Source of the DNA: JBFLXN01 sp040755715 [NCBI: Candidatus Edwardsbacteria bacterium] | Lineage (GTDB): Bacteria; Edwardsbacteria; AC1; JBFLXN01 | Length of the DNA stretch: 12,979 bases | Direction of reading: 5' to 3' | Assembly: GCA_040755715.1 (NCBI GenBank) | Contig: JBFLXN010000069.1 | Span: 1-12,979 of the forward strand | Shown here: positions 5,077 to 12,548 of the stretch, one piece after another | Numbering within the stretch: the first letter of the stretch is position 1 | Layout: each line of letters opens with the position of its first letter | The notes under the pieces: generated by a model | What the model was told of the DNA's origin: nothing | The model's input: only the letters and a program-made list of their open reading frames with translations | Databases searched by the model: none | Made by a program: the position numbers and the translations under genes

Positions 5077-5214
5077 TACCACGAAAACACGAAACGATAA
5101 TATGCTGATAAGCTTATACGCTGATACGGAATGAAAAACTTTTATACATATCAGCATATCACCGTGTCCCCGAATTAATGCTGGGTTTTCCTAACATTTC
5201 GTGCTTTCGTGGTT
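5077..5214. repeat. Nested palindromic element between the UbiA and reductase genes
   Basis: The outer arms, 5078-5094 (ACCACGAAAACACGAAA) and 5197-5213 (TTTCGTGCTTTCGTGGT), pair at 16 of 17 positions. Inner arms ATATGCTGATA at 5100-5110 and TATCAGCATAT at 5149-5159 are perfect complements. The left outer arm is itself a direct repeat of CACGAAA with an 8-nt step. The element fills most of the 169-nt spacer. The GTG at 5209, a possible upstream start for the next gene, lies in its right arm and is therefore unlikely to be the true start. Confidence 0.8.
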
Positions 5215-6427: not shown

Positions 6428-7176
6428 TTATCTACTTTTCCCCCGATAAATCGGAGGGCTTACGGATGCGAGACTCTGACTTGCGGACAAATAAACCCCA
6501 GCTATAATCAATGCACCGCCTGCAATTTCGTAAACTGTGGGCTTCTGATGCAATAACAAAAAAGCCAAAATTGATGCTCCCACCGGCTCAGTGATAATTA
6601 ACATGGCTATCTGCGATGTCGGCAGATACTTTAGTCCACAATTAAAAGAGCTATGACCCAAAACCTGGGGCCCCAAGGCCAGCAAGAAAAAATAGAAAAA
6701 GGTAGTCCGACCAAAACCAGAAGATTCCCAAAATTGGCCGTTCCACCAACAAAAGCTGACCTACCACCTATTAACACTCCTCCGACGAGCACTAATACTA
6801 TGGCCAAAAGGAGCCTCTTCCCAACTCTTTCTCTTAAAAACACCCAGCCCAGAATGCCCACGAATAGAGGGTTCACCGTTACAAAAACTACTGAGCTGAC
6901 CACAGATGTGTAATTCAACGAATAAATCCAAAGTCCGAAATGAAGACTCAAAAAGACCCCAGCGATGACAGTCCATAGAAGATCTGACCCACAAATACCT
7001 TTGAGTGGTCTTTTTAATGCCAGTACCGGCCAGAGCAATATGCTAGAGATGGCCAATCTGAAGAAGGCAATGGCCAAAGGCGGAGCCTGACAGGCCTTAA
7101 TGATGATGGCGGCAAATGATATAGATACCATTCCCGCCATCAATACCGGCCAGAGATAAGGTGGTTTATTTGTCAT
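6428..7176 (-). pseudogene. EamA/DMT-family transporter, frameshifted and internally deleted
   Basis: Two reading frames together make one drug/metabolite-transporter (EamA) protein. The first, from ATG 7176, gives the N-terminal EamA half (residues 1 to about 160), including FFRLAISSILLWP and the NYTSVVSSVVFVTVNPLFVGILGWVFLRERVG segment written here in outline. It then runs out of frame to a stop at 6631-6633. The second half (LGHSS, GLKYLP, then the ITEPVGA segment) continues one frame over to the TAA at 6428. The shift falls near the five-base A-run at 6696-6700, consistent with loss of one base. About 50 residues normally found between the first and second helices of the C-terminal half also seem absent, so this looks like real decay and not only a base-calling error. 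It starts 11 nt after the metH stop, in the same orientation. The convergent plus-strand gene ends 19 nt away. Confidence 0.75.
6440..6458. repeat. Short palindrome in the EamA gene tail
   Basis: CCGAT (6443-6447) and ATCGG (6450-6454) are perfect complements, extended imperfectly by C-runs and G-runs to about 19 bp. It encodes the last residues of the EamA remnant (SPPIYRGKSR). It is followed by no convincing T-run, so I do not call it a terminator. Confidence 0.45.
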
Positions 7177-7187
7177 CTTAAGAAGTT

Positions 7188-9722
7188 CTAAGGTGAAAAC
7201 TCGTAAAGCAATCTCTCTATCTGTTTTACCGCATCCAGACAGTCTTTGCCATACGCATCAGCTCCGATTTCTTTAGCATATTCTTCAGTCACGACCGCAC
7301 CACCAATGATTGTTCTTGCCTTGACTCCTTCCGCCTTCAGCCTCTTTATTATATTCTTCATCTCAGGCATAGTAGTAGTCATCAAAGCACTCAGCCCAAC
7401 TATGGCGGGTTTTTCTTTCTTGACAACTTCTACAATCACCTCAGTAGAAACATCTTTACCAAGGTCAATTACCTCATAACCATAACTTTCCAAAAGAGCA
7501 ATCACTAAGTTTTTCCCTAGGTCATGAATATCTCCTTTTACTGTCGCAATGATAATTTTCATCCCAATATTCTTCTTCTTGCTTTCGGTTTTGATAGAAT
7601 CTTGAAGGAAATTCAATCCTTTTTTCATTGTCTCTGCTGAGAGAATCAACTGTGGAAGATAAAACTCTCCTTTTTCATACTTCTCCCCTACTTCTTTAAT
7701 CGCTGGAATTAATATCTCATTTACTATTTGCAGTGCAGAGCGACCTGCATTGAGGAGGTTCTGAATTAGAGAAATTGTTTCTTCACTAGTTCCATTAATC
7801 ACAGCAGTGCGAAGTAGTTCAGCCGGAGAGAATTTTCTTGGCTTCTCTTTTTTCTCTTCTTCCATCTTTCCAAAGCAAGAGATATAATTTTTGGCCCGCT
7901 GGTCCTTCCCTGTCAACACTGCTGAAGCTTTAAGAATACCCATCACTTGTTCATCAAAAGGATTGATTAAAGCCGCATCAAGTCCCTTAGAAATCGCCAT
8001 TGCCAGAAAAGTGGCATTTAAAAAACTGCGCCTTGGCAGACCGTAAGAGACATTGCTAATTCCCAAAATTGCCTTCACCTGAAACTCCTCTTTAATTCTT
8101 CGCAATGTCTCCAAGGTTACTGCAATTCCTTCCTGATTAGTAGCTACTGGCAAAACTAAGGCATCCAGGAAAATATCTTCTCTGCTCAGTCCACATTTTT
8201 CAGCCATTTCAATGATTTTTTTCGCTAATCTCACTCTCTCCTTAACAGTTGAAGGGATACCTTTCTCATCCAGACAAAGTCCTATGAAAGCCGCACCGTA
8301 TTGTTTGGCTTTGGGTAAAAGAGACTCAAGCCTTGATTCTTCAGCGGAAATGGAATTAATCAACGCTTTACCTGCATAAATTCTTAACCCTGATTCTAAA
8401 GTTTCTGGATTGAGTGTATCAATAGATAGAGGCGCTTCAATAATATTTTGAAGTGTGATGATTGCTTCTTGCATAAGTCTTGGCTCATCAATTCCTGGCA
8501 CTCCCAAGTTTACATCAATGATTTCTGCTCCGGCATTAACTTGCCCTATCGCTTCTTTGCGAATTAATTGTAGTTTCCTCTCTTTTAATTCGCTGGTGAG
8601 TTCTTTTCGTCCGGTGGGATTGATTCGCTCCCCAACAATACAAATTATAGGGGTTTGATTAATCAAACTCCTACTCCTACCACCGACAAAGACCGTTTTC
8701 GTTCTGCTGGTCAATGTTGTAACAAGATTTTTCTTTCTTAAAACAGGTTTCTTATTTTCGACTCTCTGGCTGATTGCTTTAGTATGTTCTGGTGTCGTGC
8801 CACAGCAACTTCCCACAATATTCACACCGAGGCCAACAAATTTTTCTGCATATTTTGAAAGTAAATCAGGCGAGCCTTCATAGACAGTTTTTCCGTCTAC
8901 TAATTTTGGCATACCTGCATTGGGCTGGGCAAAGAGAAAACCTTTATTTATCTTAGCCATTTCGGAGATACTTGAAAACATTTCTTCTGGACCAGTGCTG
9001 CAATTTGCACCTACCGCCGTTGCACCCAAAGATTCCAATACCGTAACTGCTGTTATAGGGTCAGTTCCTGTTACCGTGCGGTTCTCTTTAGTAAACCCCG
9101 CACCTTTCCTAAAACGATGTCTCGACAACCTCGGCCCTTCGTCTTTGCGAAGAGGAGAGGCGGGCGAGGAGGAAAGGTGCGGGGTAAAACTCATAGAGGC
9201 AAAAATTGGAAGTTTGCAGACATCTTTAGCCGCTAAGATTGCCGCTCGTATTTCCTGAAGGTCAACATGAGTTTCTAATAGAATTATATCCACTCCAGCT
9301 GAAGCCAGGGCAGAAATCTGTTCTTTGAAAGTGGTGTAAGCCTCATCAAATTCAAGTTCACCAAAAGGCTGGATGAATTTTCCGGTGGGCCCGACTGAAC
9401 CGGCGATGAAATCTTTCTTATCGCCTATAGCCGATTTGGCGATTTTTACCGCGGCAATATTTATTTCTTTAACTTTATGAGAGAGACGAAATTCTTTAAG
9501 AGCCAGGCGGTTTGCTCCAAAAGTATTTGTGGTCAAAATATTAGCCCCTGCCGAAAGATATGCCTGATGGATTTCTTTAACAACTTTTGGATGCGAAAGA
9601 TTCCATTCCTCAGGACAGGCGCCGGGGGGAAGACTATTTCTTTGAAGCATCGTGCCCATCGCTCCATCAAAGACTAAAATTCTCTCTCGCAAGCATCTAA
9701 TCAATTCATCTTGTCTATTCAT
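7188..9722 (-). CDS. metH: Cobalamin-dependent methionine synthase without activation domain
   Basis: Transfers a methyl group from methyltetrahydrofolate via cobalamin to homocysteine. Order from ATG 9722 (844 residues): homocysteine-binding domain (about 1-330) with zinc ligands C241, C306 and C307 (GANCSTGP, GSCCGTTP); pterin-binding domain starting at GERINPTGRK (about 360-620); B12 cap region (about 640-720); B12-binding domain with D731-I-H733-D-L-G, SALMTTT and GGA. The protein ends there, whereas E. coli MetH (1227 residues) continues into an AdoMet-dependent activation domain; that function is in the neighbouring 9833-10555 gene. Upstream codons to 9761 are open but lie in a CACAAAG repeat, so ATG 9722 was chosen. 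Two palindromes lie in frame: residues about 180-209 inside the homocysteine domain, and 350-358 in the linker. Either could affect activity, though all core motifs are intact. Confidence 0.94.
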   Translation of the reverse strand: MNRQDELIRCLRERILVFDGAMGTMLQRNSLPPGACPEEWNLSHPKVVKEIHQAYLSAGANILTTNTFGANRLALKEFRLSHKVKEINIAAVKIAKSAIGDKKDFIAGSVGPTGKFIQPFGELEFDEAYTTFKEQISALASAGVDIILLETHVDLQEIRAAILAAKDVCKLPIFASMSFTPHLSSSPASPLRKDEGPRLSRHRFRKGAGFTKENRTVTGTDPITAVTVLESLGATAVGANCSTGPEEMFSSISEMAKINKGFLFAQPNAGMPKLVDGKTVYEGSPDLLSKYAEKFVGLGVNIVGSCCGTTPEHTKAISQRVENKKPVLRKKNLVTTLTSRTKTVFVGGRSRSLINQTPIICIVGERINPTGRKELTSELKERKLQLIRKEAIGQVNAGAEIIDVNLGVPGIDEPRLMQEAIITLQNIIEAPLSIDTLNPETLESGLRIYAGKALINSISAEESRLESLLPKAKQYGAAFIGLCLDEKGIPSTVKERVRLAKKIIEMAEKCGLSREDIFLDALVLPVATNQEGIAVTLETLRRIKEEFQVKAILGISNVSYGLPRRSFLNATFLAMAISKGLDAALINPFDEQVMGILKASAVLTGKDQRAKNYISCFGKMEEEKKEKPRKFSPAELLRTAVINGTSEETISLIQNLLNAGRSALQIVNEILIPAIKEVGEKYEKGEFYLPQLILSAETMKKGLNFLQDSIKTESKKKNIGMKIIIATVKGDIHDLGKNLVIALLESYGYEVIDLGKDVSTEVIVEVVKKEKPAIVGLSALMTTTMPEMKNIIKRLKAEGVKARTIIGGAVVTEEYAKEIGADAYGKDCLDAVKQIERLLYEFSP
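8648..8673. repeat. 26-bp palindrome inside metH (interdomain linker)
   Basis: TAGGGGTTTGATT and AATCAAACTCCTA are complementary at 12 of 13 positions with no loop. It is read in frame as part of GRSRSLINQTPI, just before the pterin-binding motif GERINPTGRK, in a segment where family members are normally shorter. A direct GTAGGA repeat lies immediately beside it. Confidence 0.7.
9096..9184. repeat. 89-bp nested palindrome inserted in frame in metH
   Basis: The perfect 15-bp outer arms are CCCCGCACCTTTCCT (9096-9110) and AGGAAAGGTGCGGGG (9170-9184). Inside, CCTCGGCCC (9129-9137) pairs with GGGCGAGG (9162-9169) with one bulge, and CTTCG (9137-9141) pairs with CGAAG (9148-9152). It is translated as about 30 extra residues (roughly 180-209) of the homocysteine domain, between ASMSFT and RTVTGTDP, which are separated by only a few residues in typical MetH proteins. 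Confidence 0.8.
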
Positions 9723-9739
9723 ATCTTTATAATAATTTA

Positions 9740-9768
9740 AACCACAAAGAACACAAAGCACACAAAGG
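9740..9768. repeat. AACCACAAAG / CACAAAG direct repeat upstream of metH
   Basis: CACAAAG occurs three times with an exact 9-nt step (9743, 9752, 9761), starting with AACCAC at 9740. It lies 17 nt upstream of the metH start and has the same AACCAC-plus-units layout as the arms of the larger palindromes, but no clear partner arm. Confidence 0.6.
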
Positions 9769-9795
9769 TTTATACAATAAGAAAGATTTCTTCAG

Positions 9796-9812
9796 TTCCG
9801 CCTCTGGCGGAA
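9796..9812. repeat. Hairpin TTCCGCC-TCT-GGCGGAA in the metH leader
   Basis: Perfect 7-bp arms with a 3-base loop, in the 110-nt spacer between the activation gene stop (9833) and the metH start (9722). Flanking AGATTT (9785-9790) and AAATCT (9811-9816) could form a competing pairing. No T-run follows on the minus strand. It may be another dispersed palindrome; any effect on metH expression is speculative. Confidence 0.5.
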
Positions 9813-9832
9813 ATCTGTGGCTAACGAGTTTT

Positions 9833-10555
9833 TCAAGAGCAACTAATTATTTTTCTCCAGCCGATAAATCCAGAAACAGACTTGCGCGGCACTAGCATAA
9901 ATGACTCAGTCAAACTAACCCCAATTTTTTCGGCTTTCAGTATCTTTAAAATTTCTTTTTGCAAAATGAGACTCAAATCTCCGTAACCGGGGCTAAAGCG
10001 TCCGGTAACCCGGTAGCCTTCATCCTTTGCCCGCAAAAAAATAAGTCGGTGTAGCTGAGCGGCCAAGTCGTCAGCCGCCACCGAACCAATTGCATCTAAT
10101 ATCAGCCCTTTGGTCTTTTCTCCAAGTATAAAAAGATTTTCTGTTCTTTTTTCCAGTTCCTGGCCAATCGTCAGTAAGAAAAGAGTCGCCTTGGTCCCTC
10201 TCTGAAGTAGTCGGGCTAAACTATTGCTTTTTATTAGGAGGTCTGCACTTTCGCTTGGACATCCCGAAAAAAGAATCTTTTTCTTGTCAATTTTTTTAAT
10301 CAGAAGGTCAGTATAAACAACTTTTGGCTCAACTAAGGTCTTTGCTTCTTGTATCTCTTCCTCAATCGTCTGCCAAACCACAGGCGGAATCCCTAATTCA
10401 GTAACCACAGATTGACACAGATTTTCACGGATTTTATTATTTTTAAATCCGCTGAATCCGTGGTTACCTTTGAAATTCTGACACTGGTAACCCAATTGAC
10501 GGAGGATTTTTGTTTTATTAAAAGAAATTGAAAAATGATTCAGGATTTTTAACAC
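9833..10555 (-). CDS. Stand-alone methionine synthase activation (reactivation) protein
   Basis: Corresponds to the AdoMet-binding activation domain of MetH, which reductively remethylates oxidised cobalamin; Thermotoga TM0269 is a known stand-alone version. The hallmark is R186-F-S-P-G190-Y191 within TGRFSPGYGDL, matching R-x-x-x-G-Y of E. coli MetH. Downstream, the SLTESFMLVPRKSVSGFIGW segment matches the usual MxPxKSVSG block. The gene starts with GTG at 10555, directly abutting the rmuC TAA, suggesting translational coupling; no better start lies downstream before conserved sequence. metH follows 110 nt later. Residues 30-52 are encoded by a palindromic repeat between ILRQLGYQ and the helical segment from PPVVW, where homologues have little sequence. 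At 240 residues it is slightly longer than expected, in line with that insertion. Confidence 0.88.
   Translation of the reverse strand: MLKILNHFSISFNKTKILRQLGYQCQNFKGNHGFSGFKNNKIRENLCQSVVTELGIPPVVWQTIEEEIQEAKTLVEPKVVYTDLLIKKIDKKKILFSGCPSESADLLIKSNSLARLLQRGTKATLFLLTIGQELEKRTENLFILGEKTKGLILDAIGSVAADDLAAQLHRLIFLRAKDEGYRVTGRFSPGYGDLSLILQKEILKILKAEKIGVSLTESFMLVPRKSVSGFIGWRKIISCS
10401..10467. repeat. 67-bp nested palindrome read in frame inside the activation gene
   Basis: Outer arms GTAACCACAGATT (10401-10413) and AATCCGTGGTTAC (10455-10467) pair at 12 of 13 positions. Inner arms CGGATTT (10428-10434) and AAATCCG (10445-10451) pair perfectly. The left side repeats CACRGATT three times with an exact 10-nt step (10406, 10416, 10426). 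On the coding strand two of the three frames are free of stops; the frame in use adds GNHGFSG, then Lys/Asn-rich residues, to the protein. Confidence 0.82.
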
Positions 10556-11826: not shown

Positions 11827-11895
11827 CCTGTCCGCCAGCTCTGATGCTTGCCCAATAGTCAGGACGGTCAGGATGGAATCGGGATGGCGGACAGG
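11827..11895. repeat. GC-rich inverted repeat in the spacer upstream of rmuC
   Basis: CCTGTCCGCCA (11827-11837) and TGGCGGACAGG (11885-11895) are perfect 11-bp complements. The surrounding 11760-11915 stretch is clearly more GC-rich than the genes beside it and repeats the word CCTGTC. The whole 250-nt spacer 11711-11960 has no convincing ORF; it holds this element, the rmuC ribosome binding site and a weak hairpin at its right end. Confidence 0.65.
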
Positions 11896-11962: not shown

Positions 11963-12548
11963 ACCTGAGTATGACCATCTTCTTCGTCGCCGTGAAATCG
12001 CCCGCTCTCAAGCGATAGAAATAAACACCTGAAGCTACACTCACCCCACTTTGATTCTTCCCATTCCATCTCACTGCATAATAGCCCGGCTTCTGCGGTT
12101 CGTTGACAAGCGTCTTCACCAGTTGCCCGGCAATGTTGTAGATTTTCAAAGTAGTGTGGCTCATAGCGGACAGCGAATAGCGGATAGCGGTCTGCGAGGA
12201 GAACGGATTGGGATAATTCTGACATAGTTGATAGTTGATAGTTGATGGTTGATAGTTAATAGTTGCGGTTTGGGCTCCTCCGCCACCTTGCCCGCATTTC
12301 TCATACTCGGTAATCACTAACGCATCTAAACCAATCAAACTTCCTCTTGTCTTCTCTATCCTCACCACTATTTCCCCATCATGCGTAACTGCATCCGGAA
12401 TCCATTTGCTGAAGACTGTCAATTCACCACTGTCAACTTTGAGTTCTCCCATCGGAACATTGTCCACAAAAACTTTATATTTACACTCATCACCACTTTT
12501 CTGATAAAACCGTAATTCTAAATTCTGCTTTTTATCCTTGTCTACCAA
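11961..12548 (-). CDS. Secreted protein with type IX (Por) C-terminal sorting domain, 3' part
   Basis: The C-terminal 85 or so residues are a classic Por/T9SS sorting domain: QNYPNPF, AIRYSL, LKIYNIAGQLV, then GYYAVRWNGKNQSGVSVASG in part, VYFYRL, ending KKMVILR. Such proteins cross the outer membrane by the type IX system and are anchored or released. Upstream is a beta-rich segment (LELRFYQKSGDE to LDALVITEYE) without a family I can name, then a low-complexity linker made from a heptanucleotide repeat. The nominal start at 12548 is a TTG inside continuous sequence. The same frame extends upstream without interruption to a TAG at 12609-12611, beyond which it continues to the window edge, so this is best read as the downstream part of one larger gene. 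Confidence 0.75.
   Translation of the reverse strand: MVDKDKKQNLELRFYQKSGDECKYKVFVDNVPMGELKVDSGELTVFSKWIPDAVTHDGEIVVRIEKTRGSLIGLDALVITEYEKCGQGGGGAQTATINYQPSTINYQLCQNYPNPFSSQTAIRYSLSAMSHTTLKIYNIAGQLVKTLVNEPQKPGYYAVRWNGKNQSGVSVASGVYFYRLRAGDFTATKKMVILR
12165..12192. repeat. Degenerate heptamer repeat (AGCGGAT-like, x4) in the sorting domain
   Basis: AGCGGAC, AGCGAAT, AGCGGAT and AGCGGTC follow each other with an exact 7-nt step. They encode the IRYSLSAM part of the sorting domain, matching family sequence up to RYSL and then diverging. Confidence 0.6.
12224..12265. repeat. (ATAGTTG)x6 heptanucleotide tandem repeat in the linker
   Basis: Six consecutive 7-mers: three ATAGTTG, then ATGGTTG, ATAGTTA and ATAGTTG. 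On the coding strand it gives TINYQPSTINYQL immediately before the QNYPNPF motif. One unit gained or lost would shift the frame before the sorting signal. Confidence 0.8.

Follow-up and report, generated by a model that had tools for sequence, protein, structure and literature searches.

An in-frame 89-bp palindromic insertion in the homocysteine domain of a bacterial metH gene

The metH gene presented here contains a long palindrome within the segment that encodes its homocysteine domain. The locus raises the question of what the palindrome is, how it came to lie there, and how the reading frame was kept. To address this question, we examined the window, i.e., the whole 12,979-nucleotide stretch of DNA in which the gene lies, together with homologous loci, a predicted protein structure, and published accounts of comparable elements.

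Pfam assigned a homocysteine domain, a pterin-binding domain, and two B12 domains to the metH product and found no reactivation domain in it; the MetH reactivation domain is encoded by its own gene, placed upstream of metH. Homologues of the reactivation protein were found with tblastn in 58 of 101 loci. Between the two genes, positions 9740 to 9823 hold a palindrome, TTCCGCCAGAGGCGGAA, inside a CCACAGATTT.. stretch, as well as the run ACCTTTGTGTGCTTTGTGTTCTTTGTGGTT, and these motifs look like further short dispersed repeats. An alternative GTG start of metH, at 9761, falls inside this repeat region, which makes the ATG at 9722 the likelier start. The features discussed below are collected in Table 1.

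Table 1. Positions of the two palindromic inserts and of the genes that contain them
Feature	Position in window	Strand	Basis
metH	7188..9722	minus	Pfam hits; translation from ATG 9722 to stop 7188
Separate MetH reactivation (Met_synt_B12) gene	9836..10555 without stop; 10555-9833 with stop	minus	Pfam PF02965, 5.7e-08
Element in metH, 89 bp, perfect 15-bp terminal inverted repeats, G+C 62%	9096..9184	minus	Repeat search; fold z about -6.7
5′ arm along metH, sense CCCCGCACCTTTCCT	9170..9184	minus	Inverted-repeat search
3′ arm along metH, sense AGGAAAGGTGCGGGG	9096..9110	minus	Inverted-repeat search
TTTA, upstream copy of likely target duplication (TTTAC including the element's first C)	9185..9188	minus	Flanking sequence
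TTTA, downstream copy of likely target duplication, then C	9092..9095	minus	Flanking sequence
Second palindromic insert, 61 bp, ACCACGGATT..AATCTGTGGT, TA-flanked	10404..10464	minus	Homologue comparison, fold, flanks

The initial annotation had described the metH palindrome as 89 bp long with perfect 15-bp outer arms, and the inverted-repeat search, the simulations, and the folding all agree with this description. The arms form the longest perfect inverted repeat in the window (loop of up to 200 bases); with one A-T pair of the flanking repeat included, they extend to 16 bp (9095-9110 / 9170-9185). When the window was simulated 100 times with a first-order Markov model, 2 simulations had a longest perfect arm of 15 bp, the other 98 had none above 13 bp, and 16 bp was never attained. 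Imperfect inverted repeats elsewhere in the window are longer (e.g., 1390-1426 / 1446-1482; 37 nt, 78%). A 99-nt sense stretch containing the element gave fold z scores of -6.67 as DNA and -6.74 as RNA, and in neither case did any of 200 shuffles reach the same stability; 121 nt of the plus strand gave -6.00. The two inner stems that had also been claimed were found in part: in the DNA fold, CCTCG..CGAGG around CTTCG..CGAAG makes a solid stem and a second stem has 3 bp, and the sense RNA fold has a single bulged stem. Four of the six reading frames of the 91-bp palindrome are free of stops.

The residues encoded by the insert are missing from all 80 homologous MetH loci compared (the best 80 of 535 relatives). 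Between matching positions on either side of the site, the window has 37 residues and these homologues have 7 (77 loci) or 6 (3 loci). The element plus one TTTA amounts to 93 bp, which is divisible by three and corresponds to 31 codons, in line with the roughly 30 added residues proposed initially; subtracting 31 from 37 leaves 6. No stretch similar to the insert peptide occurs in the homologues. Best-segment MetH identity is at most 47% among the best 80 of 535 relatives, whose titles are mostly clostridial and negativicute, and 27 aligned loci show 44 to 52% identity over the homocysteine domain. The homologues compared are thus all distant, and a sister species with the same insert could exist.

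The same break was visible with tblastn against a set of 60 genomes selected as relatives of G001, which carries locus L001. A listed segment starts at query 209-215, the end of the insert, in 56 of the 60, although the break is less sharp in three of these (G052, G057, and G062), where the first segment ends already at 168. The remaining four comprise three genomes with weak matches only (G027, G029, and G030) and one, G036, with segments that end at 180 and start at 336. None of the 60 scores above G001 itself. Because they include G001, and perhaps more of the 80 loci, the locus and genome comparisons are not independent. A MetH search of viral contigs returned no relative.

Comparison with homologues at the insertion site also defined a sharp junction. 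The order along metH is GAGTTTTA - element - TTTACTAAAG, and the TTTA on each side is likely a target duplication of 4 bp, or of 5 bp if the next C is counted. When the flanks are joined without the insert, they translate as FASMSFTKENRTVT, with the length seen in homologues.

The element also differs in composition from the gene around it. Its G+C content is 61.8%, vs 40.7% for the rest of metH, where none of 2,353 overlapping 89-base windows reaches the element's value (maximum, 52.8%). When codon preference was scored against the remainder of metH, the insert fell below all 783 gene windows of equal length. This foreign composition, together with the undecayed arms, suggests that the element arrived recently.

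These data bear on whether the palindrome was made on the spot by a template switch or slippage of the replication machinery, with the flanking repeat being the microhomology used. Such an origin would fit a sequence known in one copy, with none further in the places searched, and a flanking repeat of just 4 to 5 bp. It does not explain the G+C content and codon use unlike those of the rest of metH, and the 13-kb window contains neither a donor for either arm nor another copy of the element. Moreover, the insert is symmetrical and a direct repeat borders it exactly, a configuration that usually marks transposition. We consider a local origin unlikely.

Further copies were sought more widely. 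Elsewhere in the window and across the 101 loci, no match to the element exceeds 21 bp, and the locus with the 21-bp match had been chosen because it carries the arm. In viral contigs, the two-arm pattern and the inner-stem pattern had 0 matches each; the pattern of the palindrome in the reactivation gene also had 0 matches. The single 15-bp arm was found in 21 stretches. In the 150 bases downstream of the arm, 19 of these have no second arm better than those that shuffles attain. The second arm of L087, with 3 mismatches, ties the best of 100 shuffles, and that of L097 beats it (3 vs 4), with an arm that is unpaired with the second arm in a fold of its flank; these two and the other arm stretches were taken as chance matches. 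A search of plasmids with the element gave one match (33% coverage; E, 0.3), and a search of phages gave none. The insert peptide had one plasmid match (E, 9) and matches in seven phage records (E, 7 to 10), none of them convincing. In 398 genomes from the phylum to which G001 belongs, which may not be that of the host, 5 matches with an E value of ≤0.01 (about 18 to 29 bp) were found, where about 4 are expected by chance. In 11 proteins of the window scanned with Pfam, no hit was to a transposase family. With one copy seen, we infer mobility from a single insertion and its flanking repeat. An RNA-level processing signal, which the initial annotation had named as a way in which the insert might be removed, was sought with Rfam, and no described RNA family matched in the window. 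An intron or another known RNA was set aside on the same result and because the frame is already open.

For the protein, an AlphaFold model was built from the window sequence and 27 of the 80 loci. Its mean pLDDT is 88.1, with residues 184-211 below 50; ten-residue blocks average 95 to 99 over residues 1-180 and 89 to 99 over residues 221-330. The insert is thus predicted to be a disordered loop in an otherwise well-formed domain. The best Foldseek match of the model is Thermotoga maritima MetH, 1q7m (TM-score, 0.79 by query length), and in the sequence match to this chain, query residues 179 and 210 both meet chain residue 176. The insert follows strand 173-177, by count the fifth of the homocysteine barrel, and C241 follows the next strand, 236-240. 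C241, C306, and C307, which we take to be the zinc ligands, are invariant in an alignment of 28 sequences, in keeping with the initial statement that the zinc cysteines stay in frame. By strand order, the loop would emerge on the zinc-bearing catalytic face of the barrel. Since this is the face of the zinc cysteines, retained activity is not a given, and we regard MetH with the insert as probably still working.

The position of the loop gives some substance to the idea of a selected device. Such a device might act in the mRNA, as a hairpin that retards translation or is a target of RNase III, or in the protein, as a protease site or flexible loop through which MetH is tuned. The sense-strand RNA hairpin is very stable (-52.3 kcal/mol), and topology places the loop on the catalytic face. 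Against a device stand the lack of an Rfam match and of any counterpart in the best 80 of 535 relatives, and unadapted codons fit a newcomer better. We therefore judge this explanation quite improbable. The insertion can be understood as selfish and tolerated, and a host function is unnecessary to explain the element.

It is also conceivable that ribosomes skip the 31 codons, taking off at the TTT codon before the element and landing at the identical TTT after it, with help from the hairpin. The evidence for skipping consists of the matched TTT codons and the strong hairpin (-52 kcal/mol), and we assign this reading a very slight probability. If it were true, a bacterial housekeeping gene would harbor a naturally occurring in-frame bypass element, and it would be clear why a loop on the catalytic face is tolerated. 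The portion of PMC5009743 available to us reports in-frame bypassing with synthetic constructs and states that no natural occurrences are known. The bypassing blocks of Magnusiomyces mitochondria and the coding gap of T4 gene 60 likewise lie inside genes, but as described in the available accounts they carry stops or interrupt the frame and have to be bypassed, whereas the metH insert is open and in frame.

The adjacent reactivation gene contains a second palindrome, as initially claimed, and it differs in sequence from the first: BLAST of the 89-bp against the 61-bp element gave 5-bp matches only. Its fold z score is -5.70. The 61 bp plus one TA make 63 bp, or 21 codons (NHGFSGFKNNKIRENLCQSVV), in frame and open. 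Two unrelated palindromes have thus entered two parts of one enzyme system with both frames intact, each after the first base of a codon. In the reactivation protein, homologues have 4 to 7 residues between matching positions and the window has 34. The region is poorly conserved, and the edges of the 61-bp insert are less certain than those in metH. Beyond the 21 residues of the palindrome, the protein has 6 to 9 extra residues at 10404-10464 without counterpart in homologues.

In both cases, the open frame itself is weak evidence, since it has a fair chance of occurring anyway and only survivors are visible. For 93 nt, the chance of an open frame is 0.28 in window sequence and 0.39 in shuffled elements; for 63 nt, the corresponding values are 0.38 and 0.16. 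If a further one in three is allowed per insert for a fitting length, the joint chance for both inserts is about 1 in 100. Because gene-breaking insertions would go unrecognized, this joint chance measures survival and not preference.

The second palindrome also bears on whether the first is a chimeric product of assembly or amplification. The locus is known from a single sequence, which leaves room for such an artefact, but a chimera would not be expected to produce a flanking repeat, an open frame, and homologue length on joining of the flanks, nor would it account for another in-frame palindrome in the neighboring gene. An artefact is highly improbable.

The metH insert combines an inverted repeat, a flanking repeat, a 31-codon difference from homologues, an open frame, and a foreign composition. 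It has the terminal inverted repeats of MITEs and, at 89 bp, no internal transposase gene; TTTA lies on both sides and the joined flanks have homologue length, as target duplication implies, for one insertion against distant homologues. As in Rickettsia palindromic elements (RPEs), the insertion is in frame and stop-free in a conserved gene. We conclude that it is probably a short, non-autonomous, MITE-like inverted-repeat element that inserted at TTTA(C), duplicated this site, and is tolerated and translated through in the manner of RPEs. A transposase supplied in trans would act on the 15-bp ends and move the gene-less element, and landing at TTTA(C) would duplicate the target. Length and frame would happen to fit, and selection would keep the insert. 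Ribosomes would then translate straight through, and the product would be a floppy loop of 31 residues. Survival would be possible because 89 plus 4 bp is divisible by three, the frame is stop-free, and the added residues protrude in a disordered loop. The unrelated element in the reactivation gene probably arrived likewise, at a TA site.

Comparable elements are known, and the comparisons made here draw on the available portions of the cited papers. Rickettsia and Wolbachia palindromic elements are short, lie in frame within conserved genes, occur as several families per genome, and are translated through (PMC10969869, PMC2229807, PMC3767692, PMC4224334). The metH and reactivation gene inserts are likewise short, palindromic, in frame, and in conserved genes. 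The likeness is one of description: RPEs are 105 to 146 bp and multicopy (PMC2229807), whereas the elements here are 89 and 61 bp, with one copy of each seen. The target duplication of RPEs is marked with a question mark (PMC2229807), whereas a flanking repeat is visible in metH. One Rickettsia guanylate kinase that contains an insert of this type is translated, and the enzyme is active with an altered substrate affinity (PMC2229807). The enterobacterial RU-1/ERIC, RU-2, and RU-3 elements and the 107-bp Correia element are small, have stop-free frames, and are fused in frame to genes, and most have terminal inverted repeats with TA at the ends (PMC2229807, PMC2759123). These are multicopy elements from other lineages, again likened by description, and the TA-flanked 61-bp element is closer to them than the 89-bp element is. 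In Coxiella, MITEs lie at the 3′ ends in genes of known function, and some are in frame and mid-gene in hypothetical genes (PMC5896051). Transposase-free repeats of about 110 bp occur in Haloquadratum (PMC3119063). Perfect inverted repeats of up to 284 bp are found inside protein-coding genes of Nematomorpha (PMC6649704); these are mitochondrial, whereas the 89-bp metH insert is bacterial.

Among the matches listed in a literature search, no title or abstract beginning reports a palindrome in metH. The metH palindrome is a real, clean insertion of an already known kind, and since small in-frame palindromes have been published for Rickettsia, Wolbachia, and enterobacteria, it is less surprising than first implied. 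In the portions of the literature covered, Rickettsia provides the best-documented cases of palindromes that reside in proteins. The presence of two in-frame palindromes, unrelated to each other, in the two genes of a single enzyme system suggests that small selfish DNA may often come to lie within proteins in the source lineage as well, and the metH insertion offers a clean junction for study. It is also a warning for annotation, as surplus residues in a conserved enzyme can stem from mobile DNA.

Other features of the window are noted here. An open reading frame at 6631-7176 encodes an EamA transporter of 181 amino acids with one EamA domain. EamA proteins usually have two such domains, and the frame may therefore be shortened or broken. 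Three intergenic regions contain repeats: a nested palindrome at 5078-5213, ACCACGAAAACACGAAA ... TTTCGTGGT, with inner arms at 5091-5110 / 5149-5168, starts with ACCAC as does the element in the reactivation gene; an inverted repeat, CCTGTCCGCCA / TGGCGGACAGG, lies at 11827-11895, upstream of an RmuC gene; and at 1367-1490, direct repeats of 10 bp (TAGAAATTGA-like) precede an inverted counterpart. The window also encodes a secretion-tail protein (Pfam Por_Secre_tail, FlgD_ig), which may point to a host that does not belong to Bacillota. At 12224-12272, a coding 7-bp tandem repeat, ATAGTTG, precedes a secretion-system C-terminal tail and gives TINYQPSTINYQL.
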